Positions 1-16,185 of a stretch of DNA of 64,000 nucleotides are shown here, one piece after another. Below the pieces are notes generated by a model. That model was not told the DNA's origin. It was given only the letters and a program-made list of their open reading frames with translations, and did not search any database. Made by a program: the position numbers and the translations under genes. Each line of letters begins with the position of its first letter. Position 1 is the stretch's first letter. This stretch comes from Akkermansia muciniphila (GTDB taxonomy: Bacteria > Verrucomicrobiota > Verrucomicrobiia > Verrucomicrobiales > V1-33), in assembly GCA_945900785.1 (NCBI GenBank), contig CAMDJM010000011.1:1-64000 (forward strand), read 5' to 3'.

Positions 1-704
1 AGCATCTTTTGAACCTCATCCAGAGCGGCCAGCAGGCGCTTGTCATCGGCGGTCACCTTGTAGCCCGTCGCCTGCGTGCTGGGAATCCAATGCTGGATCA
101 GGGCATTCAGGGCATCCTCGTCCAAGTTTTCCAATTCCTGCCCCTTGAACTTCCCAACATGGACCTTGGTTTGCTGCCATCCCTTTGGTTCTTCAGGGAC
201 ATCGGTCTTGTTGTAGGCTGCCCCGGTATTGGTTTCGTCATTCTTGATCTTGTCCCGCTGGCGGATGTATTTGCCGGAAGGTTTCATTCCTCCCGGTTCT
301 TTGTCCGATCCAAGCCACGTCATGTTGGCGTAGATGGTTCCCTCATCGTTCTTGTGCTCGATGATGAGCTTCACCGGCTTCCCGATCAGGTCATCCGTAT
401 CAAAACGATCCGGCAGTTTGTTGAGTCCGAAAATCTTCAGCGCATCCTTCTGGAAGTTCGACCTGTCCCCAAGGACGGGGCTGAAATTATCGCCATTCTT
501 GACAGCGGTATAGCCGTGCGACCAGAAGGTGAAATTGTTCCCATCCTTGTCCTTGGTTTCGGTTTCAAAGACGATGGCGAATTTCCACCTCATCCCATAA
601 GTCGTTTGCTTCTCTCTTGGCTCGGTGAGGTCCACGACAACAGCACGGATGGGGCCGTCGGCGGCGGGATGCGGTTCAAATTTCTTGGTTGTTTCAGCGA
701 TCAT
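1..704 (-). CDS. Phage-like protein with possible OB-fold/SSB-like core and GKxKG motif (partial, runs off left edge)
   Basis: The frame is open from an ATG at 704 to the left edge (234 codons, no stop), so the C-terminus lies outside the window. The N-terminal half is a compact hydrophilic domain with alternating beta-type segments (VVVDLTEP, RWKFAIVFETE, GKPVKLIIEH). This resembles the small phage proteins grouped with DUF669/SSB-like single-strand binding proteins, but no family can be assigned firmly. Near the visible end VGKFKGQELENL is followed by an amphipathic stretch ending in HW. That recalls the GKYKG motif of the exonuclease X C-terminal/DUF3820 type. It is the last visible gene of a leftward group starting at 1543. 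The opposite strand has a long open frame that I treat as a shadow. Confidence 0.7.
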   Translation of the reverse strand, partial: MIAETTKKFEPHPAADGPIRAVVVDLTEPREKQTTYGMRWKFAIVFETETKDKDGNNFTFWSHGYTAVKNGDNFSPVLGDRSNFQKDALKIFGLNKLPDRFDTDDLIGKPVKLIIEHKNDEGTIYANMTWLGSDKEPGGMKPSGKYIRQRDKIKNDETNTGAAYNKTDVPEEPKGWQQTKVHVGKFKGQELENLDEDALNALIQHWIPSTQATGYKVTADDKRLLAALDEVQKM

Positions 705-739
705 ATATGTTGGTATTTGGTGTTTTTTTGGTTTGCCTG

Positions 740-904
740 TTAGGGAAATCTGCGGATGAATTCCATGTAATCCTCATGGTGTGCGGCTTGGCGGCGGTGC
801 ATCCGGCGAAGGCGTTTCCAGTTCATTTCGACGTTCACGAAAATCACCAAAAACAAGATTGGTAGGAGGATTAGAATCAGACCTAAGAGGGTTTCTAAGT
901 TCAT
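740..904 (-). CDS. Small single-pass membrane protein (54 aa)
   Basis: Starts at MNLETLLG. Residues about 4-25 are almost purely hydrophobic (LLGLILILLPILFLVIFV), followed by a basic tail rich in Arg and His (WKRLRRMHRRQAAHH). That is the topology of a one-helix membrane protein with a cytoplasmic C-terminus by the positive-inside rule. It overlaps the 3' part of the upstream gene in another frame, 36 bp before the next gene begins. No clear Shine-Dalgarno sequence is seen. A longer upstream reading of the same frame looks non-coding, so the internal Met is preferred. Embedded one-helix proteins occur in phage lysis and superinfection-exclusion cassettes, but no function is assigned. Confidence 0.45.
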   Translation of the reverse strand: MNLETLLGLILILLPILFLVIFVNVEMNWKRLRRMHRRQAAHHEDYMEFIRRFP

Positions 905-1289
905 GAGTGGAAGAGGTAAAAACATAATTGAGAGCTTCCGCGCAGGTAAGGCCGGCGCGATCCTGGGTGAGGCTGAGGATTGAATTGAAGGCGTCCAGAC
1001 AGAAGGACGGGGACTTGGCGAGAGTGCGGAGTGAGGCCAGTTGAGCATCATCCATCTCTGGTTCTCCCAGCATATAGGCCATCAGGCTGGGGACATGGAT
1101 GTAGGTAATCCCTTGATCTCCCCGTCCCTGTCCAGCCACATGCTTGTAGCGGACTTTGGCCGGGACGCCCCGTTGCGGCACCCCGTAGATGAGTTGTTGA
1201 ATCTTCCGCCGGCTCCAGCCGGACACCGGGCACTTGGCACCACGACGGGCAGCAGGCAGGTGAATCCACGTTTGCTGAATGGCGGTCAT
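774..1289 (-). CDS. Hypothetical protein with possible N-terminal HTH-like segment
   Basis: This gene encodes 171 aa. The N-terminal 80 residues are rich in basic and aromatic residues (CPVSGWSRRKIQQLIYG), with the look of a helix-turn-helix or recognition segment. The middle (MDDAQLASLRTL...CAEALNYVF) looks helical. The last 40 residues are Pro/Arg-rich, low in complexity, and overlap the small membrane gene, so the true end may be functionally unimportant. Its ATG overlaps the stop of the upstream gene (ATGA at 1286-1289), indicating translational coupling. No family is recognised. Confidence 0.55.
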   Translation of the reverse strand: MTAIQQTWIHLPAARRGAKCPVSGWSRRKIQQLIYGVPQRGVPAKVRYKHVAGQGRGDQGITYIHVPSLMAYMLGEPEMDDAQLASLRTLAKSPSFCLDAFNSILSLTQDRAGLTCAEALNYVFTSSTHELRNPLRSDSNPPTNLVFGDFRERRNELETPSPDAPPPSRTP

Positions 1290-1543
1290 GGATGAATCAG
1301 GCTGTTGGGTGTCCCGGTCGGCAGGTCGCCATAGCGGGCGGCTCTCGTGCTATGCCCCGCCCTTTTTTCTTGGCTGGTTTTTTCAACGGCTTGCGGGGGG
1401 CTTGATCCATTCAGTTTGGCAAGAATTGCCTCCACAATAAATTGATCCGATTTGATTCCCAGTGCCGCTGCTTTGGATTCGACCTGTATCAGATGCTCCG
1501 GCGTCAAAGTGGCTGATGGTATGATAGTGATAGTGATGTCCAT
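1286..1543 (-). CDS. Small hypothetical protein, first gene of leftward element operon
   Basis: An 85-aa protein. The N-terminal 45 residues read as a small alpha/beta fold (MDITITII...TPEHLIQVESKAAALGIKSDQFIVEAILAKL) like short arc/ribbon-helix-helix proteins: a beta strand followed by two helices. The C-terminal 35 residues are polar and low in complexity. It is the promoter-proximal gene of a leftward operon (1543 to 1) and is divergent from a repressor-like gene across 131 bp of AT-rich, repeat-bearing DNA. An antitoxin- or Cro-like regulatory role is inference from fold and position only. Confidence 0.5.
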   Translation of the reverse strand: MDITITIIPSATLTPEHLIQVESKAAALGIKSDQFIVEAILAKLNGSSPPQAVEKTSQEKRAGHSTRAARYGDLPTGTPNSLIHP

Positions 1544-1560
1544 AATTGGAGATGAAATTT

Positions 1561-1674
1561 ATTTAGCACTTTGCGAATCTATTTCAAGTAAAGTCTGCAA
1601 AGTGATGAAAAAAAGTTTGAGTTCTGGAGAAAATGATTTGCAGTCTGCTAAATTTTGATTTAAAATTTAGCACT
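1561..1674. promoter_or_regulatory. Divergent operator/promoter region of the phage-like element
   Basis: This AT-rich spacer lies between the leftward operon and the rightward repressor gene. Repeats visible: ATTTAGCACT as an exact 10-bp direct repeat at 1561-1570 and 1665-1674; CACTTTGC (1567-1574) inverted as GCAAAGTG (1597-1604); AGTCTGC at 1592-1598 and 1642-1648; AAATTTT (1650-1656) inverted as AAAATTT (1662-1668). The last copy of the direct repeat ends next to the repressor ATG at 1675. The arrangement fits a lambdoid-style switch with one operator autoregulating the repressor. Confidence 0.55.
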
Positions 1675-1974
1675 ATGAACCCACAACAAATCAAGCAATG
1701 GCTGAAGCAATCTGGGCACGACCGTCAATGGTTGGCCGGAAATTGCGGCGTCAGCAAATCCACGGTGGACGGATGGCTGTCTCCAAACGGAGCGAGGAAT
1801 ATTCCCAAGCCTTCGCAGTCCATCATTGCAGCCCTGATGTATAAGGAAAAACCAATCGAGCCGCGCTTCACCGTAGAGCAATACGCCCGCATTCAAAAGG
1901 CAGCCAAAAATGCCGGCATGGAGGTTGATCAATGGATCGAGCAAGCCATCATCAGCTTGGCTACAAATATTTGA
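1675..1974 (+). CDS. HTH repressor-like DNA-binding protein
   Basis: A 99-aa protein. Residues about 4-45 form a classic lambda-repressor-like helix-turn-helix pattern: IKQWLKQSG, DRQWLAGNCGVSKSTVDGWLS, with IPKPSQSIIAALM as the closing helix. A second helical segment (FTVEQYARIQKAAKNAGMEVDQWIEQAI) may mediate dimerisation. The ATG at 1675 is preferred over the upstream ATG at 1633 because the added residues are encoded by operator repeats. It is divergent from the leftward operon and is the natural candidate for its repressor. Confidence 0.7.
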   Translation: MNPQQIKQWLKQSGHDRQWLAGNCGVSKSTVDGWLSPNGARNIPKPSQSIIAALMYKEKPIEPRFTVEQYARIQKAAKNAGMEVDQWIEQAIISLATNI

Positions 1975-2119
1975 TCTTCTACCGCATTCCAGATCCTCCG
2001 CTCTGAGGCTGATCCCAGCGGACATCCGTTGGCGTTCTCTACACGGGTCGGTCTCCATTGTGTTGCTCCCCTGATTTCGTGACTTGATTTTCTTCATGGC
2101 GACATTTTCATCAAGATCT

Positions 2120-2170
2120 TCTGATGCGCCATGCTGCGCAGTGATGCGCAATGCTGCACAGTGCATCAGA
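2120..2170. repeat. Two 20-bp tandem repeats inside an inverted repeat, upstream of an RHH gene
   Basis: 2123-2142 and 2143-2162 are adjacent 20-bp repeats matching at 18 of 20 positions (core GATGCGCxATGCTGCxCAGT). They are bracketed by TCTGATGC (2120-2127) and its inverted copy GCATCAGA (2163-2170). The array ends 21 bp before the start codon of the ribbon-helix-helix gene at 2192. This is where an autoregulated RHH repressor would bind. The rest of the 1975-2191 gap shows nothing else. Confidence 0.6.
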
Positions 2171-2191
2171 TTTCCAACTTCTCTTAAATAC

Positions 2192-2563
2192 ATGCCCCGA
2201 GTCACCATCAACATCTCCGACGACCTGCTCGCTGTCCTCGAAACCATCAAAGTCCGCGAGCGCTATACCTCCCCGTCCGAGGTGGTGCATTCGTTCCTCC
2301 GCCATTGGGCGCTGTCTCAGCAGGAGCATAAGCTCACCGGCGAATGGGCACGGCTGGCAGGCCCGGAGCGCGACGCCTTGGACGCCGGCCTGCTCAAGCT
2401 GGTGAAGGCCGGGAAGAATAAAAAGGGCAGTTGGCTTAAAGCACAAATTTACGCCGCCATTAAAGAAGCCCACGGCGCAGACGCCAAATCCCCCACCATT
2501 GACCAAGTGCTGTCCGTCCTGCCTGATGTCCTCAGGCGCGAAATCCTCAACCAAAAATCATAA
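2192..2563 (+). CDS. Ribbon-helix-helix protein (CopG/ParD-like N-terminus)
   Basis: A 123-aa protein. The N-terminus PRVTINISDDLLAVLETIKV followed by YTSPSEVVHSFLRHW is the ribbon-helix-helix pattern: a short beta strand with alternating residues, helix A, then a turn with SPSE starting helix B. The remaining 75 residues are helical with a basic patch (KAGKNKKGSWLKAQIYAAIKEA) and are unrecognised. The start at 2192 is chosen because the beta strand begins there; the longer frame upstream reads through the repeat array. No toxin partner follows: the next gene is a tRNA on the other strand. It may be a regulator of the element rather than an antitoxin. Confidence 0.65.
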   Translation: MPRVTINISDDLLAVLETIKVRERYTSPSEVVHSFLRHWALSQQEHKLTGEWARLAGPERDALDAGLLKLVKAGKNKKGSWLKAQIYAAIKEAHGADAKSPTIDQVLSVLPDVLRREILNQKS

Positions 2564-2601
2564 TGCGCACATCGGCACGTTCCATTCCAGATTTTTTTAT
2601 C

Positions 2602-2634
2602 ATTCCCGTTTTATTCCCGTTTCACTCCCGAAAC
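2602..2634. repeat. Three tandem 11-bp repeats next to tRNA-Ser (possible integrase arm sites)
   Basis: ATTCCCGTTTT (2602-2612), ATTCCCGTTTC (2613-2623) and ACTCCCGAAAC (2624-2634) lie head to tail, 27 bp from the tRNA 3' end. Short direct repeats flanking a tRNA-embedded attachment site are typical arm-type sites for tyrosine recombinases. That reading is inference, since no integrase gene is in view. Confidence 0.4.
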
Positions 2635-2660
2635 TTCAGTTATCATCGGTGGAATAAAGG

Positions 2661-2750
2661 TGGCGGAAGGGGTGGGATTTGAACCCACGGTGAGTTGCCC
2701 CACGTTCGATTTCGAGTCGAGTGCCTTAAACCGAGCTCAGCCACCCTTCC
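2661..2750 (-). tRNA. tRNA-Ser(CGA), CCA encoded
   Basis: The acceptor stem GGAAGGG (2744-2750 on the complement) pairs with CCCTTCC (2665-2671). The discriminator G and an encoded CCA follow (2661-2663). The anticodon loop is CTCGAAA, giving anticodon CGA. The T arm is GTGGG-TTCAAAT-CCCAC. A long type II variable arm (GTGGG/CTCAC) confirms serine. The outermost anticodon-stem pair appears to be a C-A mismatch. The 3' end points toward the phage-like genes, the usual orientation for a tRNA used as an integration site. Confidence 0.95.
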
Positions 2751-2892
2751 GGACAAATTCATCCTAGGCGGGTGGCGGCGGAGGTAAAGGCGGGAATTGG
2801 GCCCGCTGCATCTTTTTTCATAATGTCCGTGGGATTTCCCTGCGGATGCCGTTACAGCAGGGATTCCTTTTTTTACAATCAAACCGCATTTC

Positions 2893-3486
2893 ATGGACTG
2901 GAACAGCCTGGGCACTTTCTTCAATTTCGGCGTAAACCATGTGCTTCATGGCCTGGACCATCTGTTATTTGCTTCGGCGCTGGTGCTTTCGCTCCGGAGT
3001 TTTTGGGAGGTGTTCAAGGTGATCGGGGTCTTTACGGTGGCGCATTCGCTGAGTGTTTCCCTGTCGGTGATCCGGGGGGCTCCTCCGCTGCCCTCGTGGT
3101 TCGTGGAACCCTGTATCGCGGCCAGTATTGTCTTTGTTTGTCTGGAGAATATTTTTCTGCCGGGTTATGCCATCAGCACGCGGCGGCTCGCGGTGGCGTT
3201 CCTGTTCGGTTTGATCCACGGGCTGGGCTTTGCGGGGGCTTTGCTGGAAACGCTGGCGGGGATGTCAGGCCCCATCAAGGTCTGGGCGGTGGTGTTGTTC
3301 TGTATTGGGGTGGAGGTCGGTCACCTGTGCGTCGTGGCTCCATTGTCCGGGGCGCTGAAAATCGGGCGCGACCAAGGCGGGGAAGGATTCCACACGGCGG
3401 TCCTGAAATACGGCTCGATCCTGATTGGCTTGGGCGGGGTGTTTTTCCTGCTGGGAGCCTTGGGACTTTTGGGCAAGGGATCCTGA
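2893..3486 (+). CDS. HupE/UreJ family membrane protein
   Basis: A 197-aa protein with about six hydrophobic segments. It carries the family signatures: FGVNHVLHGLDHLLF (about 12-26), FTVAHSLSVSLSV and GLIHGLGFAGALLE. These histidine-bearing membrane motifs characterise the HupE/UreJ family, some members of which are nickel or cobalt transporters linked to hydrogenase or urease. Neither enzyme is nearby, so the substrate is unknown; many bacteria carry isolated copies. It is monocistronic, with the frameshifted gene on the other strand ending tail-to-tail with it. Confidence 0.85.
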   Translation: MDWNSLGTFFNFGVNHVLHGLDHLLFASALVLSLRSFWEVFKVIGVFTVAHSLSVSLSVIRGAPPLPSWFVEPCIAASIVFVCLENIFLPGYAISTRRLAVAFLFGLIHGLGFAGALLETLAGMSGPIKVWAVVLFCIGVEVGHLCVVAPLSGALKIGRDQGGEGFHTAVLKYGSILIGLGGVFFLLGALGLLGKGS

Positions 3487-3489
3487 AGC

Positions 3490-4064
3490 CAAGCCACCGG
3501 GCCGATCAGCGTCACTTCGGGTTTGCGGAGGATGCCTTCCTCTCCGGTGGAGCCGGAGTGGGCGAAGCCGGGGGTGAGGATGGATTCGAAAACTTTCCTG
3601 GGAATGCCGGGCCTGGGTGAGTTCGTTTTTGGAGAGCTGGCACAGTTCCTCCGCATCCTTTAACTCATTTTGACGGATCAGAATCCCGGATTTGAGTTTC
3701 CGCATCGTTTGATTCAGGATGATTTCCTCCGTTTCGGATAAGCGGACGGCTTCGCCTTTTTCCCAGGATTCCTCCAAGGTCCGCACTTTGCGGGCGGCAG
3801 CCTGTTCGGCTTGGGCGAAACTTTGGAGGCGGGCCTGAAAGCCAGTGCGCGCTACGGCTTCCATCTCGGCGTATTTTCCGGCCAGATCATCCGTTTTTTC
3901 TGGAGGTCGGATTCGCGTCGCAGGGCCTCCTGTTCCTTGCTAATCAGGTCATCCAGATATTTTTCAAGGCGCGACATTTCAGTGTTCACCCGATCCAAGT
4001 GGCGGCCTTCGGGGGGAAGGGTCGGAACCTGAAATGATGGGGCGAAGGGGGTGCTGGTTACCAT
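3490..4064 (-). pseudogene. Frameshifted coiled-coil protein gene
   Basis: Read from the ATG at 4064, the protein starts MVTSTPFAPSFQVPTLPPEG and enters a charged helical stretch (NTEMSRLEKYLDDLISKEQEALRRESDLQKK). At an A6 run near 3895 the coding quality moves to another frame, where LAGKYAEMEAVARTGFQARLQSFAQAEQ continues a coiled coil to about 3610. A second shift near 3600 leads into KVFESILTPGFAHSGSTGEEG. One inserted A in the A6 run would join the first two parts exactly. There are therefore two disruptions within 600 bp; the left end is uncertain because the last frame stays open into hupE. Either this is a decayed gene or the assembly has errors here. Confidence 0.6.
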
Positions 4065-4120
4065 GTTGAATCCAAAAGAAAATTGATGATGAGAATGATC
4101 GCAAATACCACAAAAATCAT
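4058..4120 (-). CDS. Possible 20-aa hydrophobic peptide overlapping the coiled-coil gene start
   Basis: An ATG at 4120 opens a 20-codon frame whose residues 1-16 are nearly all Ile, Val, Leu, Phe or Ala (core FVVFAIILIINFLL). The stop TAA overlaps the next ATG as ATGGTAA (4064 to 4058), a coupling arrangement. It could be a tiny membrane peptide or leader translated before the coiled-coil gene; chance remains possible. The DNA from 4121 to 4283 shows no other feature. Confidence 0.3.
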   Translation of the reverse strand: MIFVVFAIILIINFLLDSTW

Positions 4121-4283
4121 AAAATGCCGGGGATTTATTCTGATTTCTTAAACCTCCATAACTGATTGAACACCATCCTGTCGCGCCAGTTCGTAGCATG
4201 GGGAAACGGGGGGACTGCTGGCATGAAATCCAAGTCCAGATTTGGGCAAGATCCTATTTAAAAAGGGATCGGATTTTGATTTT

Positions 4284-5057
4284 TCAGCCGGGCAGGGCGA
4301 GTTGTTTCAGGCGCTCCGGGGTGGTGTGGCCGATGAGTTGCATGATTTTTCCGTCCTGCTTCCAGGTGATGGTTTCCCAACCGTTCACGCTGGCGAGCAG
4401 CGGGGCGGAAAGGTCGGCGGGCAGGTCGCTGGCGTTGATCGTGAAAAGGTGCACGGTGCCGGCATCCTGAGTTTCGAAGCAGACTAGAGTGACCTGGTGT
4501 CCCTGCCATTGGAAAATTTCACAGCCATGGGTGGGCAGGGGGGAGAGGCTGCTGGAAATCTTCTCAGCATGGGACGTGGAGTGGCTGGCGAGGTAGGTTT
4601 GCAGCTCGCTAAAGTCCCCGGAGGCCTTGGAGAAATGGATCCCGCCATTATTGACCTTTTTCGTGGTGGCATCTCGGAATTCCGTCAATCCGGCGTTGGC
4701 CTGTGTTTTGGCAATTTCATGACCGGAAGGGAACAACTGGGGTTTGACGAGAAGACTGGAGACGCCGATGGCGAGCAGGGCTGCGGCGCTGAAGACCGTA
4801 AGGCGGCGGCGCCACCAAGGGATCTGCGGCGTGATGCGGGCTCCGGCGAGGATACTGCTGCGCAAGGCGGATGGCACGGTAATGGAGCGCAGCTTTTCTC
4901 CGATCAGGGCGTCGAAGGCGGCGTCATCTTCCAGTTCTTTTATGAGGTCTGGGAGGTTTTCGATGGTCTGCCGGGCTTCTGCCATGGCTGGCAAGGAGTC
5001 GTCCTGGCCCCGGGCGCGCCGGCATTGCAGGATCAATCGGGCTTCTTGAGGGTTCAT
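4284..5057 (-). CDS. Putative anti-sigma factor (single-pass membrane protein)
   Basis: A 257-aa protein. A cytoplasmic N-terminal part of about 90 residues is acidic and helical (PDLIKELEDDAAFDALIGEKL). It is followed by WWRRRLTVFSAAALLAIGVSSLLV, a single membrane helix at about 100-120, and a 130-residue extracytoplasmic domain with several aromatic strands. The ATG overlaps the stop of the ECF sigma gene (ATGA, 5054-5057), and this order is the standard sigma/anti-sigma operon. The classic zinc-binding HxxxCxxC anti-sigma motif is not seen; the assignment rests on topology and context. Confidence 0.65.
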   Translation of the reverse strand: MNPQEARLILQCRRARGQDDSLPAMAEARQTIENLPDLIKELEDDAAFDALIGEKLRSITVPSALRSSILAGARITPQIPWWRRRLTVFSAAALLAIGVSSLLVKPQLFPSGHEIAKTQANAGLTEFRDATTKKVNNGGIHFSKASGDFSELQTYLASHSTSHAEKISSSLSPLPTHGCEIFQWQGHQVTLVCFETQDAGTVHLFTINASDLPADLSAPLLASVNGWETITWKQDGKIMQLIGHTTPERLKQLALPG

Positions 5058-5599
5058 GAGCGGGCCTCCTTTCTTTTGGGGGATTGCATAGGGATGATGT
5101 TGTTCGCGGGCCGGCCTTCGCTGCGGTCTTTCATTTTATCGCGCAGCAGGGCCTTGCCCCGCCAGAGTCGGGACATCACGGTGCCTTCCGGCACGTTGAG
5201 GATGGCGGCGATTTCCTGGTAGGAATGGTCTTCGAGGTAAAACAAAACAAGGGGAGCGCGGAAGGTTTCGTCGATTTCCTGAAGGGCGCTGATGACTTCC
5301 GAGGCTTCGAGGGACCGCACGGCGTTGGAGTCGACGGGCGGCAATTTGGATTCGACGTCGGATAATTCATCCTGTGGAAAGCGCGTCAGGTGGCGGCGGC
5401 GGTTCAGAAAAAGGCGGTAGAGGGTGGTGAAAAGCCAGGATTTGGCTTTGGAGGCATCCCGCAACTGTCCGGATTTCTGAGCCCAGCGGAGAAATGTCTC
5501 CTGCGTCAGATCGCTGGCATCCGCCTCGCTGTGGGCAAGGCTCCAGGCGAACTGATACAGGCCACGGTAGTGGGTATCGACCAAGGTTGTAAAATCCAT
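5054..5599 (-). CDS. ECF RNA polymerase sigma factor
   Basis: A 181-aa protein from the Met at 5599. Region 2 is visible in FTTLVDTHYRGLYQFAWSLAHSEADASDLTQETFLRWAQ, and region 4 in ISALQEIDETFRAPLVLFYLEDHSYQEIAAILNVPEGTVMSRLWRGKALLRDKM, with its helix-turn-helix at the end. The length is normal for ECF factors. The internal Met is preferred because the upstream 25 residues are not part of the fold. It is co-transcribed with the membrane anti-sigma candidate. Targets are unknown; the divergent YdeP oxidoreductase shares the same promoter region. Confidence 0.85.
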   Translation of the reverse strand: MDFTTLVDTHYRGLYQFAWSLAHSEADASDLTQETFLRWAQKSGQLRDASKAKSWLFTTLYRLFLNRRRHLTRFPQDELSDVESKLPPVDSNAVRSLEASEVISALQEIDETFRAPLVLFYLEDHSYQEIAAILNVPEGTVMSRLWRGKALLRDKMKDRSEGRPANNIIPMQSPKRKEARS

Positions 5600-5677
5600 G
5601 CCACGGTAGGAAACGTCAGCCTTCCGCTTTATTCCCGGGAAAAGAATCTTTTTTGTGGAGGCCCCCGGGAGCAAGAA

Positions 5678-5700
5678 ACCGGCTATGCAATTGCCGGTTT
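5678..5700. promoter_or_regulatory. Inverted repeat between the sigma operon and the oxidoreductase
   Basis: AACCGGC (5678-5684) and GCCGGTT (5694-5700) form a 7-bp perfect inverted repeat with a 9-bp loop. It lies in the divergent spacer, 27 bp before the YdeP ATG and 79 bp upstream of the sigma ATG. It may be an operator or a 5'-UTR hairpin. Confidence 0.3.
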
Positions 5701-5726
5701 GCGTCGTAGATCAGGAACTCCCTCCC

Positions 5727-8024
5727 ATGCCACAGACTCCTGAATCCAACGCCTTCACTCCGCTGGAAAACCCAGCGGAACTCTCCACCCGGACTCCTGC
5801 CCATGCTGCCGCCGGCGCTGCTGCGGTGGTCTCCTCCTTCCGTCATTTGTTATCCCGCACGGGTCCCCTGCGCGCGGCGGCGGGGATGCTGGGCTTGAAC
5901 CAGACGACTGGATTTGACTGTCCGAGCTGCGCCTGGCCGGATCCGGACGGGCACCGCAGTGCTTTCGAGTTTTGTGAAAATGGCGCGAAGGCGCTGGCCT
6001 CGGAAATCACCTCCTCCCGGGCAGATCCGGCGTTTTTTGCCCAGCACTCCATTGCGGAACTGGCCCGGCATTCTGATTTCGAGCTGGACCAGGCGGGCCG
6101 CCTGACGCATCCGATGGTGCTCCGGCCGGGGGCCACGCATTATCAAGCAATTTCCTGGGAGGACGCCTTCGCCCTGGCGGCGGAGGAGTTCAAGGCACTG
6201 CCGGTGGCGGATCAGGCGGTTTTTTACACCTCCGGGCGGGCCAGCAACGAAGCGGCTTTCGTCTGGCAGCTCTTTGCCCGGCAATTGGGCACCAACAATC
6301 TCCCTGACTGCTCAAATATGTGCCACGAGTCCAGCGGCTATGCCATGCAGGAAGCCATCGGGGTAGGGAAGGGCACCGTGACCCTGGACGATCTGCACCA
6401 CGCTGACATGATCCTCCTGATGGGACAAAATCCGGGGACAAATCACCCCCGGATGCTCACCGCTCTCCAGACCTGTGTCCGGAATGGCGGTCATCTGGTG
6501 GCGGTGAATCCTTTGCGCGAGGCTGGATTGCTGGGCTTCATGCATCCCCAGGAGATGCTGGGGACGCTGGGAAAAGCCACCCCGCTGGCCGCTGATTATT
6601 TGCAGCCTCAGCTGAATGGCGACATGGCTCTGCTGCGTGGCATGGCCAAAACCCTGGTCGAGGATAACACCATTGATGCTGACTTTATCCGCGCCCACAC
6701 CAACGGCTTCGAACTTTACGCCAATGCGGTGCGGAGTCAAAGTTGGGAAGAGCTGGAGCAGCTCAGCGGACTCCCCCGGGAGGCCATGCAGCGCACTGCC
6801 CGGGCCGCCGCCACCCGGCGGAATCTCATCACCTGCTGGGCGATGGGCCTCACCCAGCACCGCAATGCAGTGGCCACCATCCGGGAGGTGATCAACGTGC
6901 ATTTGCTGCTGGGAGCCATTGGTAAACCGGCAGCCGGGCTGTGTCCCGTCAGGGGGCATTCCAATGTCCAGGGAGACCGCACCATGGGCATTTTTGAGAA
7001 AATGCCGGAAGCGTTTCTGGACCGTCTGGAGCAGGAATTTTCCTTCCCCGCGCCCCGGCATCATGGCTACGACACTGTCGCTTCCATCCGGGCCATGCAT
7101 GATGGGAAGGTGGGAATCTTTGCGGCGCTGGGCGGTAATTTTTTGCAGGCAGCGCCGGATACAGAATACACCGCCCAAGCGCTGTCGAACTGCGCCCTGA
7201 CCCTTCATATTGCCACCAAGCTCAACCGCTCCCACCTCGTGACCGGCCGCACCGCGCTCATCCTGCCCTGCCTTGGCCGCAGTGAGGAAGACCTGCGCGA
7301 CGGCGTGCCGCAGTTTGTCACTGTGGAGGACAGCATGAGCATGGTGCACGCCTCCCGGGGCAGTTTAAAACCGGCCTCGCCAAACCTCCTGAGCGAGACC
7401 GCCATTGTCTGCGGACTGGCGGCAGTGGCCTTGGCGCAGAAAACGACCGTGCCGTGGGATGCCTATGCGGCGGATTACGATAAAATCCGCGACTCCATTT
7501 CCCGGGTGGTCCCGCATTTCGACCATTTCAATGAGCGCGTGCTCGCCCCGGGAGGCTTCCGCCTGCCCAACGATGCCAGCCGCCGGGTCTGGGACACGGA
7601 TTCGGGCAAGGCTGGATTCCACACCGTCCCCGTCAGCGCCTTCAAGGCGGCTCCCGGACGCTTCGTGCTCCAGACTTTCCGCAGTCACGATCAATTTAAT
7701 ACCACCATCTACGGGATGAACGACCGCTACCGGGGCATCAGTCATGGCCGCCGGATCATTTTCATGAATCCGGCCGACCTGAAAAAACTGGGCCTGCGGC
7801 CGCTCCAGCAGGTGGATCTGACCAGTTACTGGTCCGACGGCATCCGCCACGCGGAGGGATTCCAGGCCATCCCCTATGAAATGCCTTCCGGCAATTGCGC
7901 CGCCTATTATCCGGAAGCGAATGTGCTCGTTCCTCTCGGATCAGCGGCGGACTTCAGTGGCACTCCCACGTCAAAAAGTATCGAAGTCAGCATTGCACCG
8001 TCCCGGCTGCCTAATCAGATATAG
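5727..8024 (+). CDS. FdhF/YdeP family molybdopterin oxidoreductase
   Basis: A 765-aa protein matching the YdeP type of formate-dehydrogenase-alpha-like enzymes. It has a single CPSC pair at about 65-68 in place of the full four-Cys 4Fe-4S set, then the molybdopterin regions YTSGRASNEAAFVWQLFAR, NMCHESSGYAM, LMGQNPGTNHPRML and GHSNVQGDRTMG. The C-terminal molydopterin dinucleotide-binding domain has FRSHDQFNTTIYG. It is cytoplasmic, with no Tat signal. E. coli YdeP contributes to acid resistance; the substrate is undefined. The start at 5727 is taken over upstream starts since earlier residues overlap the promoter hairpin. Confidence 0.85.
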   Translation: MPQTPESNAFTPLENPAELSTRTPAHAAAGAAAVVSSFRHLLSRTGPLRAAAGMLGLNQTTGFDCPSCAWPDPDGHRSAFEFCENGAKALASEITSSRADPAFFAQHSIAELARHSDFELDQAGRLTHPMVLRPGATHYQAISWEDAFALAAEEFKALPVADQAVFYTSGRASNEAAFVWQLFARQLGTNNLPDCSNMCHESSGYAMQEAIGVGKGTVTLDDLHHADMILLMGQNPGTNHPRMLTALQTCVRNGGHLVAVNPLREAGLLGFMHPQEMLGTLGKATPLAADYLQPQLNGDMALLRGMAKTLVEDNTIDADFIRAHTNGFELYANAVRSQSWEELEQLSGLPREAMQRTARAAATRRNLITCWAMGLTQHRNAVATIREVINVHLLLGAIGKPAAGLCPVRGHSNVQGDRTMGIFEKMPEAFLDRLEQEFSFPAPRHHGYDTVASIRAMHDGKVGIFAALGGNFLQAAPDTEYTAQALSNCALTLHIATKLNRSHLVTGRTALILPCLGRSEEDLRDGVPQFVTVEDSMSMVHASRGSLKPASPNLLSETAIVCGLAAVALAQKTTVPWDAYAADYDKIRDSISRVVPHFDHFNERVLAPGGFRLPNDASRRVWDTDSGKAGFHTVPVSAFKAAPGRFVLQTFRSHDQFNTTIYGMNDRYRGISHGRRIIFMNPADLKKLGLRPLQQVDLTSYWSDGIRHAEGFQAIPYEMPSGNCAAYYPEANVLVPLGSAADFSGTPTSKSIEVSIAPSRLPNQI

Positions 8025-8288: not shown

Positions 8289-11200
8289 ATGAATCTGTTG
8301 AAATTCCGGACTTGGGTCAGCGTGAACCGCGCGGCGGCCGTTTTGTTGTCTCTCCTTCCCTCCCGGATGTTGGCCGATCAGGCTGCGTTGGATGGAACCT
8401 CCCTAACTTTGCCTCAGGTGGGGGAGCATTGCCTGCGTGTCCTGGATTCCGGGACTTTGGAACTGCTGCGGATCAATGGCATGCCTCCGGGAGGGACGGT
8501 GGACAGTTGAAATTTTGATGTGACCGGGGGAGTTTTCACCAGCCCGCCTCTGACGGAGTTTAATGTTACGGTGGACGGCCAGGCCGTTGCCGTCACCAGA
8601 TCAGGCTTCCGACGCCGGGCCGTGTCCGTGCCTCCGCAGGTGCGGGATCTGCGGGTGGAGAGCCGGCTTTTTCTGCGTCTTGCGGCTCCGGTGCCGGAAG
8701 GGGCGGTGGTCGTTGTGACCAATCCAGGGGCCGCCCTTTGGCCAGCTGGTTTTTCCTTCGCCATCACGGCCAGTCCGCTGCGGCTGAGCCATGCGATCCA
8801 CGTGAATCAGGAAGGTTACACCACCACTCTGCCGAAGCAGGTGATGATCGGTTATAATCTGGGCAGCCTGGGGGAACTGCCGCTGAATCCAGCCTTGGGG
8901 TTCAGCCTGGTGGAAACGGGATCGGGAAACACGGTTTTCAGCGGCCCGCTGACCCGGCGGGCTGACGCAGGATTCACCATGGCTCCCCTGCCGTATCAGG
9001 AAGTGCTCCAGGCGGATTTCAGTGCTTGGCAAACTCCAGGGGAATACCGGCTGCAAGTGCCCGGGCTGGGGGCTTCCCTGCCGTTTTTGATCGCCGATGG
9101 CATGGCGATGAATTTCACCCGGGCCTATGCGCTGGGCATTTACCAGCAGCGCTCCGGGGCTCCCGTGGGGTTGCCCTTCTCCCGTCATTCCCACGCCGCC
9201 AGCCATCTGGCCCCAGCCCAGGTGCCGGTGCCCTCAGCCTCCTTTGTAAAAGCCTGGCAGAATATTGCTTCGGTCAACGGCAACTACAATCTGAATCCCC
9301 GTCACACCGCCCCCCGTCTGGCGACTGAGGCGGATCAGTTGTTTCCCTTCATCAATGCCAGCCATATCGACGTCTCCGGCGGCCACTATGATGCCGGGGA
9401 CTACAGCAAATATACCATCAACAGCGCCCAGATGCTGCATTACCTGACGTTTGCCGTGGATTCCATGCCGGGCGTGGCGGCTCTGGATAATCTGGGCCTG
9501 CCGGAGAGTGGCGATGGGATCAGCGATGTGCTGCAGGAGGCCATGCACGAGGCGGCTTTTCTGTCAAAAATGCAGGACGCCGATGGAGGCTTTTATTTCC
9601 TCGTCTATCCCAAGGAACGCAAATATGAGGACAACGTGCTCCCGGACCAGGGGGATCCGCAAATTGTCTATCCGAAAAACACCTCGGCCACGGCGGCGGC
9701 CACGGCTGCGCTGGCGGAGCTGGCATCTTCCCCAACTTTCCAAAACCTCTATCCGGCGCTGGCAGCCAGCTATCTGCAGAAGGCAAATCTGGGCTGGCAG
9801 TTCCTGCTGAACGCCATCGCCACCTACGGCAAGGATGGATGCTATCAAAAAATAACCCATTATGGCGACGTCTTCATGCACGATGATGAGCTGGCCTGGG
9901 CGGCCTGTGCGATTTTCTTGGCGACAGGGGATGCCAACGCCCACAGCCTGCTGCGCACCTGGTATGATCCTTCCGACCGGAACACCCGCCGGTGGACCTG
10001 GTGGCGGCTGTTTGAGGCCTATGGATGTGCGACGCGCAGCTACGCCTTTGCCGTCAGCAGCGGGCGGCGCACGGCTGGGGAGACGGATGCGGCCTACCTG
10101 ACCAAGTGCCGCAATGAGGTCCAAGGCGCCGGTGATTATGCCCTGACAAATAGCCTCAACAGCGCCTACGGCACGGGCTTTGATTCCGCTTCCAAGCGCA
10201 CCCGCTCAGCCGGCTGGTATTTTTCCTAGGAACGCGCTTTTGATATCAGCGCCGCCCGGGCGCTGCTGGACAAGCCCGGCTACCTCGCCGGGATCATGAC
10301 CAACCTGAACTACGAAGCCGGCGGCAATCCGGTCAATATCTGCTATATCACCGGCATCGGCCAACGGCGTCAGCATGAGATCGTGAACCAGTATGCCAAA
10401 AATGACCGGCGCGATTTGCCACCTTCCGGCATTCCCCAGGGCAATCTGCAAACCGGTATCCCGTGGCTGAATCTGTATGGCACCGAGCCTGCTTCCCTGA
10501 CTTTTCCCAGGGACAGTGCGGATACCGCGCCTTATGCTTTTTACGACCGTTGGACGGATACCTTCAACACCAGCACGGAGGCGGTGACGGTGGATGCCAC
10601 CCGCAGTCTGGTCAGCCTGGCCATGGTCGCGGCCGGCACCCCGGGCGCCACCCAGGCGTGGCAGAGCAGTCCTGCTACCATTATCATTCCACCGGGGGAT
10701 GTCACCGTGGGCACGCCGGTAACGGCGGTGCTGTCCGCTCCAGGCGTGGATCTTTCCCAGGCCAGAATTGTCTGGGAGTCCGGCGATGTTCCTCCCGCCT
10801 ATAGCGGGACGGAGTGGACCTTCACGCCTGCCAGTGTTGGATTGCAATGGATTGAGGTGGAGGCTGCGTTGCCGGATGGGCGGCGGGTCGCCGCTGCAAC
10901 GTCCTTTGCCACCAAGGTCGTGAGTGGTGATTATCCCTGGGAGAGTGACAGCAATACCCTGGCGCTCTATCACTTTGACGGGAATTGGCAGGACAGCAGC
11001 AGCCGGGGCTTCCACCTCACGGCGGCTGGCGCGGTAACCAAAGCCACGGACAACCGGGGCTGGATGGCCTATCCGGCCGGGGGCACGGCCCGGTTTACGG
11101 CTTTCGGGCAGACCTTGAGCGTGGCGATTCCCGATTCCCTGATCATGCCAGGCAGTGTCAGGCCGGATCTGACGATCGAGGCCCGGATTTATCCCCGGGC

Positions 11201-11558
11201 GTGGAAAGCCTATGGGGTGAGCAATGGCCCGGTGGTTTCCCTCCGTCAGGAGTGGGATAACTCCCTGGAACTGCGCGATGGCAAATGGAACAGCCCGGCG
11301 GCTCCCTTGGCAGCGGCGGGGAATGTGATCGCGGCCAACAGTGCGGCATGGTCACCGGCCTGCACTCTGAATACCTGGCATTTGTTGAAACTGACCCTCT
11401 CCAGCAGTGGCTCGATTCAATGCCGCCTGGATGGCAACCTGGTAGGAACCGCCAATGCCGCAGCATTTTCCGGCAATCGGACCAATGCCTGGATCTTTAC
11501 GCTGGGGAATTTTGACGGGGATCTGGATGAAGTCCGCGTCAGCAATGTGGTCCGATAA
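8289..11558 (+). pseudogene. GH9 endoglucanase-like gene interrupted by two in-frame stops
   Basis: A single reading frame runs from the ATG at 8289 to 11558, broken only by TGA at 8508-8510 and TAG at 10227-10229, with no frameshift. Across both stops the protein continues sensibly: a signal peptide; an N-terminal Ig-like domain (HVNQEGYTTTLPKQVMIGY); the GH9 catalytic domain with GGHYDAGDYSKY (catalytic Asp), LPESGDGISDVLQEAMHEA and STEAVTVDATRSLVSLAM (catalytic Glu); then an Ig-like segment and a C-terminal LamG/concanavalin domain (NTLALYHFDGNW). TGG to TGA and CAG to TAG single transitions would explain both stops. GH9 enzymes cleave beta-glucans such as cellulose. The intact protein would be exported and about 1090 residues long. 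Confidence 0.85.
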
Positions 11559-11589
11559 GTTGGTTTCCTGGCGGGTAGTCAGGAAACGT

Positions 11590-11650
11590 GAGGACTGCGG
11601 CGCAGTGACTCCCGCAGGCGGGTGACTGGGAGTCCGCAGCGCTCCGGCAG
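11590..11650. repeat. GC-rich interspersed palindromic repeat
   Basis: ACTCCC and GGGAGT flank a CCCGC/CGGG mini-hairpin, with CTGCGGCGC on the left answered by CCGCAGCGCT on the right. It lies between two genes and looks like a REP-type element. Confidence 0.35.
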
Positions 11651-11754
11651 GAAGCTCTGGGCGACGTTGCCACTGCTTTTACTCGTCGCGCTCCCGTTTT
11701 TTGATGGAGCAGGGATGGCTGGGAGAGGCGTATGGCGGCGTTGAGTCATTATTG

Positions 11755-11783
11755 AGTATTGTAATTATGAAAATTATAATACT
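11755..11783. terminator. AT-rich inverted repeat between converging genes
   Basis: AGTATTGTAAT (11755-11765) is answered by ATTATAATACT (11773-11783), ten of eleven positions paired, around a 7-nt loop. It lies between the converging GH9 and sulfatase genes, where a terminator or processing hairpin would be expected. GC content is low, so a protein-binding site is equally possible. Confidence 0.3.
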
Positions 11784-11852
11784 GCTTCGAAAAAAATCAA
11801 ACTGTTCTTTTGATTGATTGCCCGTGAGAGAATGCCTGCCTGGCCGCAGGCT

Positions 11853-13286
11853 CTATCGTTTTGCGGGTGCCCCATCGCGTAATGGCCAGTGTGGATTGGG
11901 ACGGCGGGCCGATTCCAGGGTCGTTTCGGCCCGGTCAACGATTTCCGGCAGGGTTGAAGCGAGGTTTCTCGACTCGGTGGGGTCGGTGCTTAGGTCGTAA
12001 ATTTCCAAGGGAGCATCCTGACGCTGCAGGCGGAGGGCTTTCCAGCGTCCATCGAGGAGGAGGGCTTGGCTGGTGCCGCCTTCGTGGAATTCCCAGTAGA
12101 GAAATTCGTGCTTTTTGACCTCGCCCTGACCACTGAGCAGGGGCACCAGGCTGAGGCTATCCCGCTCCGGCGGCAGGGGCTGGGCAGCCAGTTCGGCGGC
12201 GGTGGCCATGAGATCACCGAAGTAAGCAGCGTGGCCGCTGGTGCCGGGAGGGATGACGCCAGGGAGGCAGGCGATGAAGGGCACCCGGATGCCGCCCTCG
12301 GTGAGGGAGCGTTTGATGCCCCGGAAGGGTCCGGAGGATTGGAAAAACGCCGGTTCATTGCCGCCCTCGGCATGGGGGCCGTTGTCACTGGTGAAAAGGA
12401 TCAGGGTGTTATGCTCCAAGCCGGCGGTGGCGAGGGTCTCGCGGAGGCGGCCGACGCAGCGGTCGACGCGCGAAATGCTGGCGGCCTGGCCTTTGTTAGG
12501 CTGGGTCCAGGGTTCTGAGGCGTAGGCACCGTAATCCGGGACTTCCATGCCGTCCTTCAAAGCCCGGTTGCGTTCATTGTTGGCGTGGGGGCTGACAAGG
12601 GAGAGGCAGAGGAAGAAGGGGCGCCCAGGTTCCTGCTGGATGAATTTCACGGCTTCATCAGTAAAAAGATCGTCGGCGAATTCGAGGCGGTTCGTGGAGT
12701 AGCCACTGCCTTCCGTGCCGATAGGGGTGAGGTCGTTTTTCAGAGGCTGGCGGATGCGGCCGCGCCAGAGAAAGTCCGGATAGTGATTGTGGGCGTGGGT
12801 CTGGTCCAAGTAGCCGAAGAAGGAATTGAACCCTTTTTCCAGGGGATGGCCGGGGCCGTCCACTGCGTCTCCCAGGCCCCATTTTCCGATGAGACCCGTG
12901 CGGTAGCCGGCGGCTTGGAGAATCGAGGGCAGAGTGGGTTCTTCTGCCGTGAGGGTCTGGGCGGCGGGGTTGTTCTTGGCGGCGTTGCCGCGGACGGTGG
13001 TGTGGCCGGTGTGCTGGCCTGTCATGAGCACGGAGCGCGATGGAGCGCAAACCGTGCTGCCGGCGTAGAATTGCGTAAAGCGCAGGCCTCCGGTGGCCAT
13101 GCGGTCGAGGTGTGGGGTTTTGATTTTCTGTTGGCCGTAGCAGCCTAAATCACCATAACCAAGGTCGTCGGCGAGGACCAGCAGAATGCTCGGCTTCCCG
13201 GGAAATGGAGCCGCTGGGCTGTGGCCAGGAAACGCCAGCAGGAACAGGACAAGGCTGCAGGAGCGAAATTTCGGCAGGTAGAACAT
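11853..13286 (-). CDS. Arylsulfatase family protein, secreted
   Basis: A 477-aa protein from the Met at 13286 (FYLPKFRSCSLVLFLLAFPGHSPAA, a signal peptide). Type I sulfatase signatures: ILLVLADDLGYGDLGCYGQ (metal-binding Asp pair), CAPSR at about 80-84 (the C-x-P-x-R site whose Cys becomes formylglycine), GKWGLGD, and LILFTSDNGPHAEGGN with the metal ligands DNG. It hydrolyses sulfate esters, probably on polysaccharides, in the periplasm or outside. The neighbouring broken GH9 suggests a former polysaccharide-use locus. A formylglycine-generating enzyme must be elsewhere, as none is in the window. Confidence 0.92.
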   Translation of the reverse strand: MFYLPKFRSCSLVLFLLAFPGHSPAAPFPGKPSILLVLADDLGYGDLGCYGQQKIKTPHLDRMATGGLRFTQFYAGSTVCAPSRSVLMTGQHTGHTTVRGNAAKNNPAAQTLTAEEPTLPSILQAAGYRTGLIGKWGLGDAVDGPGHPLEKGFNSFFGYLDQTHAHNHYPDFLWRGRIRQPLKNDLTPIGTEGSGYSTNRLEFADDLFTDEAVKFIQQEPGRPFFLCLSLVSPHANNERNRALKDGMEVPDYGAYASEPWTQPNKGQAASISRVDRCVGRLRETLATAGLEHNTLILFTSDNGPHAEGGNEPAFFQSSGPFRGIKRSLTEGGIRVPFIACLPGVIPPGTSGHAAYFGDLMATAAELAAQPLPPERDSLSLVPLLSGQGEVKKHEFLYWEFHEGGTSQALLLDGRWKALRLQRQDAPLEIYDLSTDPTESRNLASTLPEIVDRAETTLESARRPNPHWPLRDGAPAKR

Positions 13287-13366
13287 CACCACGCCATCGC
13301 CCGCCAAGGCCGGAGCACAAGCGCTCTGGCTTACGCAATCGGGGCATGCTGTCCGGGCGACTTTCC

Positions 13367-13408
13367 CACAAAAAACCCCAAAGCGGTGTGGGGCTTTGGG
13401 GTTTTGTG
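13367..13408 (-). terminator. Intrinsic terminator downstream of the PilT genes
   Basis: The stem is GCTTTGGGG (13393-13401) pairing with CCCCAAAGC (13376-13384), extended by the flanking A and T runs with a two-base bulge. Read leftward it ends in a T6 tract after the stem, the form of a rho-independent terminator for the leftward pilT pair. Confidence 0.75.
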
Positions 13409-13446
13409 AATTGCGGTAGTGCGGGGCGGCACCCTGGCTTTATGCC

Positions 13447-14529
13447 TTACGCCATGTGGTCGGAGGTTTCCTTGGTGAGGTATTTCTTGAAGCGGGTCTT
13501 GTCGATGGCTTTCATGTAGGCCTCCATCGGGGTGACCTTTTCAATCTTCAGGTTTTCCCAGATGGCATTGTCCATGAACTGCATGCCGTAGGCGGCACCA
13601 CCGGTGATCACGTCGGATAGCTTCTGGGTGGCCCCTTCACGAATGATGGCGGCCACCGCCGGGGTGGCGACGAGGATTTCATTTACCGCCACACGGCCGT
13701 TGCCATCTGCAGTTTTCATGAGCAACTGGGCTACGACGCCGCGCAGGGAGGCGGCGAGCATGGTGCGCACCTGGGATTGCTGGTCAGAGGGGAACACGTC
13801 GACCAGACGGTCAACCGTCTTGCGGGCGTTGTTGGTGTGCAGGGTGCCGAAGACAAGCAGGCCGGTTTCCGCTGCTGTGAGGGCGAGGGAGATGGTTTCC
13901 AGGTCGCGCATTTCCCCCACCAGCACGATGTCCGCATCCTCACGGAGGGAGGCGCGCAGACCATCGGAGAACGTGGGCGTCTGGATCGGCACTTCCCGTT
14001 GGGTGATAATGCTCTTCTTGTTGCGGTGGACGAATTCGATGGGTTCCTCGACCGTGATAATGTGGCGGGAGAAGTTGACGTTGATGTAGTCGATCAGCGC
14101 GGCGAGCGTGGTGGACTTGCCGGATCCGGTTGGCCCGGTCACGAGCACCAACCCGCTGCGCATTTCGCCGAAGCGCTTCACGACCTCAGGGATGCCGAGA
14201 TCCTCAAGGGTTTTGATCTTGGTCGGAATCAGACGGAAGACGGCACCATAGCCATTTTGCTGCTTGTAGTAGTTGCAGCGGAAGCGTGAGTCCTCATCCA
14301 TTTCATAGGCAAAGTCGAGGTCGCCGCGGGCAATGAATTTTTCCCAAGCGCGGGGTTCGCAGATGCCGGTGAGCATGGTTTCCATGACTTCACGGGTGAG
14401 GATTTCCTCGGAAATGGCGCGCACGCCGCCGTGCACGCGCACTTTGGCCGGCTGGCCCTCGGCGATGTGAAGGTCGGAACCGCCGAGTTCGATAAGATGG
14501 TGGAAGAGTTGGTCAATGACAGCAGCCAT
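13447..14529 (-). CDS. pilT: PilT-like type IV pilus ATPase (retraction motor)
   Basis: A 360-aa cytoplasmic GspE/PilT-family hexameric ATPase. The N-terminal PAS-like domain begins DQLFHHLIELGGSDLHIAEGQPAKVRVHG. Walker A is TGPTGSGKST at 131-140; the Asp box EEPIEF follows; Walker B is ADIVLVGEMRD at about 199-209; the His box is GTLHTNNARKTVDRL. The PilT-specific AIRNLIRE-type helix appears as AAIIREGATQKL. It would power pilus retraction and twitching. It is the second gene of a leftward pair, 66 bp after a paralogue, and is followed by a strong terminator. No other pilus genes are in the window. Confidence 0.9.
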   Translation of the reverse strand: MAAVIDQLFHHLIELGGSDLHIAEGQPAKVRVHGGVRAISEEILTREVMETMLTGICEPRAWEKFIARGDLDFAYEMDEDSRFRCNYYKQQNGYGAVFRLIPTKIKTLEDLGIPEVVKRFGEMRSGLVLVTGPTGSGKSTTLAALIDYINVNFSRHIITVEEPIEFVHRNKKSIITQREVPIQTPTFSDGLRASLREDADIVLVGEMRDLETISLALTAAETGLLVFGTLHTNNARKTVDRLVDVFPSDQQSQVRTMLAASLRGVVAQLLMKTADGNGRVAVNEILVATPAVAAIIREGATQKLSDVITGGAAYGMQFMDNAIWENLKIEKVTPMEAYMKAIDKTRFKKYLTKETSDHMA

Positions 14530-14595
14530 AGCAGTCTGGGAGGGAAAAAGTTGGAAAAAGGAATGGCACCAGGCGGGCCCGGCACCAGGAGGGGG

Positions 14596-15699: not shown

Positions 15700-15783
15700 G
15701 CAGGGGGATTCCTATGGGATAAAGGGTGGTGGTGGAAAAACAGTCGCGGTTTAGGCGAAGGATGGGTCCAGAGCAAGGCGGGG

Positions 15784-16185
15784 TTATTCTTTTTTACGCA
15801 GGAGATCTGCAAGCATTTTTTTCCCGAAATCAGCGATTTGCGGGCCATATTTTTCTATCCCTTTCTCCAGCAGGGTCCCGGCAACTGCGGTGCCAGCCAT
15901 GCCAGCCGCCCCCGAGGCAGTGGGTTTCAGGTGTTTGAAGGCTTCCTCCGCCAGCTCCCGGGCGATTTTTCTCGCAGAAGGCGTGGCCAGCAGCCGCGAA
16001 AGCACGACCCCCGCCAGGACGGCCCCGCCTGCCAGGACGATTGGATTCCGGGCGAGGGATTCCAGGGAAGGGTGGAGCGGACGCGGGTGCGGTGCCTTCG
16101 ATTCCCCCGGCACACTCCCGGCAGGAGGCAGCACGACGAAGTTGGGAGTCGATTCAGGAAGATTCAGCGGTGATTCGGCAGACAT
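15784..16185 (-). CDS. Small membrane-associated protein, unknown
   Basis: A 133-aa protein from the Met at 16185. A proline-rich N-terminus (LNLPESTPNFVVLPPAG) precedes LARNPIVLAGGAVLAGVVLSRLLA, one membrane helix at about 58-78. A helical segment with a Gly/Ala-rich hydrophobic part (AAGMAGTAVAGTLLEKGIEKYGPQIADFGKKMLADLLRKKE) ends the protein. It follows the DUF883-like gene by 23 bp and is probably co-transcribed with it. The pairing suggests a membrane-anchored envelope or stress factor; no family is recognised. Confidence 0.65.
   Translation of the reverse strand: MSAESPLNLPESTPNFVVLPPAGSVPGESKAPHPRPLHPSLESLARNPIVLAGGAVLAGVVLSRLLATPSARKIARELAEEAFKHLKPTASGAAGMAGTAVAGTLLEKGIEKYGPQIADFGKKMLADLLRKKE

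Follow-up and report, generated by a model that had tools for sequence, protein, structure and literature searches.

A temperate-phage-like element probably integrated at tRNA-Ser(CGA) in a Verrucomicrobiales genome assembly

Genes and repeats between the contig end and tRNA-Ser(CGA)

The stretch of DNA analysed here (the window, 64,000 nucleotides, nt) corresponds to positions 1-64000 of contig C11 (CAMDJM010000011.1) of assembly G000 (GCA_945900785.1; 172 contigs, 5.08 Mb, 86.4% complete). Its first 2,660 nt very probably constitute the arm on the side of the left attachment site (attL) of a temperate-phage-like element integrated at the 3' end of a tRNA-Ser(CGA) gene. Two element ends exist, one beside this tRNA on C11 and the other, with the right attachment site (attR), on contig C133, and a sister element was found on contig RFSU01000018.1 (locus L138). 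The features of both ends are the following, with positions in the window unless C133 is named.

1-2660, no strand: assembled part of the left arm of the probable integrated element, between the contig end and the tRNA edge (C11 begins at window position 1; low GC content; matches to RFSU01000018.1)
3-704, minus: predicted single-stranded DNA (ssDNA)-binding replication protein with an oligonucleotide/oligosaccharide-binding (OB) fold, C-terminus lost at the contig end (profile, model and orthologue)
774-1289, minus: 171-amino-acid (aa) protein, encoded second in the leftward operon (orthologue in L138 with 75% identity; nonsynonymous divergence, dN, 0.15; synonymous divergence, dS, 0.92)
1286-1543, minus: 85-aa protein, encoded first in the leftward operon (86% identity over the first 49 residues in L138; dN 0.17, dS 1.12)
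1544-1674, no strand: predicted divergent promoter/operator region with repeats ATTTAGCACTTTG / TTTGCAGTCTGCTAAAT (repeat search; sister comparison)
1675-1974, plus: 99-aa regulator with an N-terminal helix-turn-helix (HTH) and a C-terminal stretch like the NikA-type ribbon-helix-helix (RHH), probable repressor (profiles; orthologue in L138)
2122-2170, no strand: iterated repeats of about 10 bp upstream of the RHH gene, probable operator (sequence repeats)
2192-2563, plus: putative 123-aa RHH-type DNA-binding protein adjoining attL (NCBIfam NikR-type RHH models)
2601-2630, minus: three 11-bp direct repeats of the type CGGGARTRAAA, probable arm-type integrase sites (20-mer shared with C133)
2661-2691, minus: attL core, last 31 nt of the tRNA including CCA, with its partner attR core at C133:1015-1045 (97% over 31 nt, expectation value, E, 1.9e-6)
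2661-2750, minus: tRNA-Ser(CGA), probable integration target, its 3' end apparently element-derived (ARAGORN; Rfam RF00005, 50.4 bits; T-loop base)
2893-3486, plus: host gene of the HupE/UreJ family on the chromosomal side of the junction (PF13795, E 1.1e-31)
C133 (L006) 1-915, minus: tyrosine integrase gene, incomplete at the contig end (phrog_1, PF00589, PF13102)

A first-pass annotation of the window had described a tRNA 3' end facing a block of small genes, comprising a divergent repressor with operator repeats, a coupled leftward operon and an RHH regulator, and this description was borne out. The tRNA called by ARAGORN and Rfam points with its 3' end toward the 1-2660 block. GC content is 52.2% in this block, whereas none of the 294 other 2.6-kb stretches sampled from the window was below 55.3%, and their mean was 60.7%. 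Direct and inverted repeats of the ATTTAGCACTTTG / TTTGCAGTCTGCTAAAT type lie between the regulator gene and the divergent 85-aa gene, which overlaps the 171-aa gene by 4 nt; 3-704 comes after these two. The regulator matched phrog_4779 of PHROGs (transcriptional regulator, E 2e-4), and its residues 57-92 matched the NikA-like family PF21983 (E 4.9e-5, 23.8 bits, below the cut-off of 27). The RHH assignment at 2192-2563 was the weaker part: NikR-type models covered residues 1-46 with an E of 5.8e-5, far under the curated cut-off, and Pfam gave no match to this product, so that an RHH identity is weakly supported but plausible. Since position 1 is the left end of C11, the element could not be traced leftward and its integrase gene is not in the window, as had also been stated.

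The truncated product of 3-704 is, according to its structure model, an OB-fold ssDNA-binding protein (hereafter SSB). Its profile match was to NF046043 of NCBIfam (rep_init_NGO0469, E 1.6e-5, 24.5 bits against a cut-off of 75). The model, built from 27 sequences (predicted local distance difference test, pLDDT, 77.4; predicted template modelling score, pTM, 0.58), gave fold matches in the PDB to PrgE of pCF10 (8s4t, E 2e-4) and, more weakly, to many ssDNA-binding proteins. Among viral models the nearest was a 37%-identical Caudovirales protein (E 8e-21), along with several DUF669 proteins.

A displaced tRNA end and an integrase gene on contig C133

Besides the window itself, a search of the assembly with positions 1-2750 gave two places: the tRNA-Ser(UGA) gene of C121 and 31 nt of C133, a contig of 9,652 nt. 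The C133 match (30 of 31 positions identical) is a copy of the tRNA end; no tRNA gene was found on C133, at the copy or elsewhere, and no second Ser(CGA) gene in the G000 assembly. An origin of the copy from tRNA-Ser(UGA) was ruled out, its acceptor-stem sequence being of the Ser(CGA) type. To the left of the copy starts the integrase gene (at 915), whose product matched phrog_1 (E 8.4e-31), PF00589 (36.5 bits, cut-off 27.1) and PF13102 (28 bits, cut-off 22.3). Ordinary genes lie to the right: a nuclease-like gene with weak family matches and then methyltransferase-like, hydrolase-like and Mrp-like genes, named from sequence reading. We compared five congeneric genomes, namely G000 itself, G001, G002, G003 and G004, and assign C133 to the genus of G000 because relatives of the nuclease-like gene, 62-71% identical, are present in all four of the others. 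The orientation is consistent with a single insertion, in the order tRNA 3' end, element, integrase, displaced tRNA end and host genes. The first-pass annotation had proposed an element integrated at the tRNA 3' end and had predicted both a tyrosine integrase outside the window and a duplicated tRNA end; the integrase and the 31-nt copy on C133 of the same assembly support that proposal.

The only mismatch between the two cores is at a T-loop base, which is A in the window tRNA and G in the displaced copy as well as in the four other congeners. This fits a tRNA that was rebuilt with an element-derived 3' end while its original end was displaced. Among the 30 best loci, taken one per genome, 27 carried G and two carried A, G000 included; one fell outside the pattern.

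A second feature common to both ends is the set of 11-bp direct repeats beside the cores, which are probably arm-type integrase sites. Three units are present on C11 and two at the other end (C133:920-940), and the 20-mer AACGGGAATAAAACGGGAAT occurs exactly at C11:2602-2621 (minus) and C133:920-939 (plus), with no further site in the 5.08-Mb assembly at up to 3 mismatches; the reversed pattern, used as control, gave one match. The longest word common to the 300-nt flanks was 22 nt; none of 400 random pairs shared a word longer than 14 nt.

With regard to the genomic context of the tRNA, HupE is on its 5' side in three of the five congeneric genomes (G000, G001 and G004, 73.5% identical). The 3' flanks gave no common blastn match among the five at E<=1e-3, those available in G001, G002 and G004 being only 1.3-1.4 kb long; the 3' side is therefore variable, as at an integration hot spot, and the outcome that would have refuted the proposal, the same genes accompanying tRNA-Ser in all relatives, did not occur. 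Two observations in the same genus concern serine tRNA ends. In G003, positions 6964-10155 of contig C59 (L081) contain a 27-nt direct repeat that includes the tRNA-Ser(CGA) 3' end, located 3.1 kb downstream of the tRNA, and the interval holds YciF-like, DUF72-like and recombinase-like reading frames, named from sequence only. In G004, a tRNA-Ser-type 3' end at 9619-9911 of contig C13 (L088) adjoins an integrase with a 45% identical N-terminus at the contig end; its acceptor stem suggests a different serine tRNA.

A sister element and the searches for relatives and for the interior

A genome-contig search with the SSB family returned 26 loci, one of which, L138 (RFSU01000018.1; 19,920 nt, metagenome-assembled genome (MAG) WB4_2_0052, labelled Sphingomonadaceae), unites on one contig the orthologues of both G000 ends in the same order: integrase (87% identical), HTH gene (86%), 85-aa protein (86%), 171-aa protein (75%) and SSB (64%). 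The next best integrase among 386 genomes of the order was only 42% identical. At the DNA level, C11:1-389, 559-1292 and 1319-1956 showed 75-80% identity to the sister contig, and the repeats were the best-conserved parts of 1544-1674. The five shared genes are under strong purifying selection (dN 0.08-0.26, dS 0.81-1.30) and are therefore real genes. The sister integrase has a nearly whole PF00589 domain (positions 9-170, E 3e-23), and the same integrase-side repeats are present. This integrase gene lies about 100 nt from the HTH gene, the arrangement expected of an unintegrated circle, intact across the element attachment site (attP).

The two elements differ in that two additional genes separate the 85-aa gene from the 171-aa gene in L138 and the RHH gene is missing there, a tblastn search of RFSU01000018.1 with the RHH protein having given no match. 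Next to attL of the G000 element, this gene and its iterons have the look of an accessory regulatory unit. After the SSB gene, L138 continues with a PolB-type exonuclease, a Dda helicase (phrog_325, E 8e-70), a phrog_1499 ATPase, genes for a helicase and a methyltransferase (phrog_16), and a Toprim primase (phrog_2249). Beyond its integrase, in the opposite direction, is a 1568-aa gene without family match, inside which the contig ends. The label of this MAG stands apart, as 24 of the 25 other SSB loci are in MAGs named after Verrucomicrobia groups or simply 'bacterium', and one is in a Planctomycetota MAG; either mis-binning or a wide host range could account for it.

More distant SSB homologues, 35-45% identical, were found in 14 other genomes (288 of the order were searched). 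At many of their loci (L117-L132, with 33-45% identity in this gene) the SSB heads genes for a PD-(D/E)XK exonuclease, a Dda/PIF1 helicase and a PrimPol/PolA fusion. In one of them (L124, G254:C41:20001-38685), the SSB/exonuclease/helicase/PrimPol-PolA module at 10073-17772 adjoins a C2c1 (Cas12b)-like protein of 1391 aa, with a RuvC-like domain (E 6e-20), and a Cas4-Cas1 fusion; this is a CRISPR (clustered regularly interspaced short palindromic repeats) system beside, or on, a mobile replication module. At six loci (L118, 5358-9462; L119, L120, L127, L130 and L131) a SbcC-like AAA ATPase, a histidine kinase and a response regulator stand beside the SSB/PrimPol-PolA module, and are possibly a regulatory or defence cassette.

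Searches for the element interior with the proteins of these distant relatives gave no PD-(D/E)XK exonuclease in the G000 bin, and PrimPol-PolA matched only C129 (polymerase region of the model), C25 (exonuclease region) and C80 (which has its own integrase). These queries were the wrong proteins, because the close sister has other genes at that position. A search with 19.2 kb of L138 recovered only C133:1-953 and the C11:1-1956 stretches, that is, the two ends, besides a weak integrase match on C39. Contig C80 (L018) deserves mention in its own right as the site of a second probable integrative element (417-5900). It carries a tyrosine integrase gene (4368-5768), a 536-aa protein (988-2598) that matches the middle of the PrimPol-PolA model, a resolvase-like reading frame (417-944) named from reading and a tRNA-end-like sequence, TTCGAGTC, near 5850.

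The phage collections searched gave no close relative. IMG/VR contained no relative of the SSB, the integrase, the sister SSB or the sister 1568-aa protein, and no stretch with the repeat motif; among annotated phages and plasmids the SSB had no tblastn match. The 1568-aa protein had none in annotated phages, and its C-terminal part was found in 0 of 239 genomes of the order. The core itself was present in 81 IMG/VR stretches. Of the 80 loci examined, 74 carried G and 6 carried A at the variable base, and none encoded any of 14 query proteins at E<=1e-5. ARAGORN was run on 20 of them and 13 lacked a tRNA-Ser at the core, which is therefore a widely shared att sequence and not diagnostic alone. 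One viral contig (IMGVR_UViG_3300035072_000033; L219, L264) has a complete tRNA-Ser(UGA) and a second 31-nt core copy that belongs to no tRNA gene, the pattern that a prophage carrying both att sites would show.

Interpretation and comparison with known systems

These data are best explained by a temperate-phage-like prophage that has tRNA-Ser(CGA) as its integration site in a Verrucomicrobiales bacterium. The SSB, the divergent HTH gene with its predicted operators and, in the sister, the helicase, phrog_16, phrog_1499 and primase genes make up a replication and regulation module of phage type. Several observations weigh against it. C11 and C133 are connected by inference and not by reads, and the C133 integrase is interrupted by the contig end at position 83 of 172 of PF00589, leaving its catalytic C-terminus off the contig. 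No terminase, portal or capsid gene was seen, the interior being missing from the G000 bin, and L138 has no tRNA-Ser core between integrase and repressor. An empty site was not found: none of the four other congeners has the C133 host genes next to tRNA-Ser, and in three of them the contig that carries the tRNA stops no more than 1.5 kb away from it. Finally, genome G035 also has the A-type T-loop base, with a degenerate A-type copy of the tRNA end 4.5 kb downstream, apparently host genes in between and no comparable element. The A-type base was for this reason rejected as a unique mark of element-bearing tRNAs: on its own it is no proof of exchange.

The lack of structural phage genes would suit an integrative conjugative or mobilizable element, or an integrative plasmid, which would share replication genes and integrase with phages and be transferred by conjugation. 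In the same direction point the NikA resemblance (PF21983) in the C-terminal half of the 1675-1974 regulator, to which NCBIfam MobA adds a match at E 0.048, the origin of the fold neighbour PrgE from a conjugative plasmid, pCF10, and the position of an RHH protein with iterons next to attL. However, the NikA match is below cut-off and lies behind an HTH in the position of a repressor, L138 contains a replication run of phage type, and the nearest viral fold match of the SSB is a Caudovirales protein. Neither family scan of L138 reported a relaxase or type IV secretion family, and no relaxase or conjugation gene was found at either end of the G000 element (the 2.66 kb on C11 and its counterpart on C133) or among the L138 genes scanned. 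We consider such an element unlikely, although it is the least unlikely of the alternatives. Also improbable is a defective remnant, in which a decayed element would consist of the two ends and C11 and C133 would be separated by a short distance. That the bin contains only about 3.7 kb of element DNA and that no interior gene was found would agree with it, but each contig breaks off within an open gene (3-704 on C11, the integrase on C133), dN is well under dS in all five genes and the bin is 86.4% complete. Mobile DNA is often lost from bins.

Since the two contigs are not physically joined, C133 could carry the distal end of a different insertion, an older or a second one, so that the ends would belong to different elements; the apparent hot-spot character of the tRNA-Ser(CGA) 3' flanks and the 27-nt duplication in G003 could be adduced in favour. 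This is very unlikely given that an identical repeat motif is confined to the C11 and C133 ends, that the orthologues of both ends are about 100 bp apart in L138 and that no other Ser(CGA) gene was found. Hardly credible, in turn, is the absence of any mobile element, with 1-2660 as ordinary chromosome and the C133 match as chance or a degenerate tRNA pseudogene. It has the lack of linkage in its favour and nothing more, and faces the E of the copy (1.9e-6), the integrase beside it, the unique shared repeat, the sister element and the lack of conservation of the tRNA 3' flank in congeners.

Under the prophage interpretation, the tyrosine integrase would bind the predicted arm-type repeats on both sides of attP and join attP to the tRNA-Ser(CGA) 3' end by an exchange within the 11 nt ACCGTGGGTTC, just 5' of the differing base. 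The tRNA would be restored with the 3' end of the element and the original end displaced to attR. The integrase gene starts next to attR, and the DNA upstream of it overlaps the repeats; its expression is therefore probably coupled to integration and perhaps autoregulated like that of intS in KplE1. The HTH protein and the operators at 1544-1674 are likely to form a lysogeny switch, in which the divergent HTH(-RHH) repressor would probably maintain lysogeny and would control a leftward early operon for the two small proteins, the SSB and then the replication genes.

Taken together, these features might define a Verrucomicrobiota temperate phage lineage with tRNA-Ser(CGA) as target, a hybrid HTH-RHH repressor and attP located between integrase and repressor in a replaceable segment, a combined proposal that we put forward tentatively and with some doubt. 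The segment contains the core, the RHH gene and the iterons in G000 and a different short sequence in the sister, and no close relative was found among the phage records and IMG/VR contigs searched. If the proposal is true, target and accessory regulator could change while integrase and immunity stay. The analysis adds a temperate-phage-like lineage, probably of Verrucomicrobiales, that has a close relative in a differently labelled MAG, and it identifies tRNA-Ser(CGA) as a site of integration in the genus of G000. It also indicates that, with the tRNA context alone having predicted the element, its second end was recoverable from a fragmented assembly through the displaced tRNA end and the shared repeats. 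Searches of open-access literature turned up no comparable element at tRNA-Ser in Verrucomicrobia.

Comparison with known systems covers the replication genes as well as the integration site. The L117-L132 modules resemble the G000 element in that a homologous SSB heads a run of DNA-replication genes, and differ from the close sister L138 in the gene set that follows the SSB. With NGO0469 of the gonococcal prophage NgoPhi1 and proteins of the DUF669/PrgE type, the 3-704 product has in common a weak profile match and an OB-type fold. Its gene neighbours are different, and its fold indicates ssDNA binding, whereas for NGO0469 a primase was guessed by the authors (PMC1931599). As to integration, the work on KplE1 describes IntS acting at argW, with an integrase promoter that overlaps attL, where the argW tRNA end is located; negative autoregulation of intS has been shown there, the region upstream of the integrase overlapping the att region (PMC2951348). 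In the G000 element it is the far end, where the displaced tRNA end lies, that carries the integrase, whose binding sites are predictions from sequence. Common to both systems are a tyrosine integrase, a core at a tRNA 3' end, arm-type sites beside the core and an overlap between the integrase upstream region and att (PMC2951348). Phage-like elements integrated at tRNA genes are a well-known kind and views on how they work are unchanged; what is new is the member in G000 and its sister.

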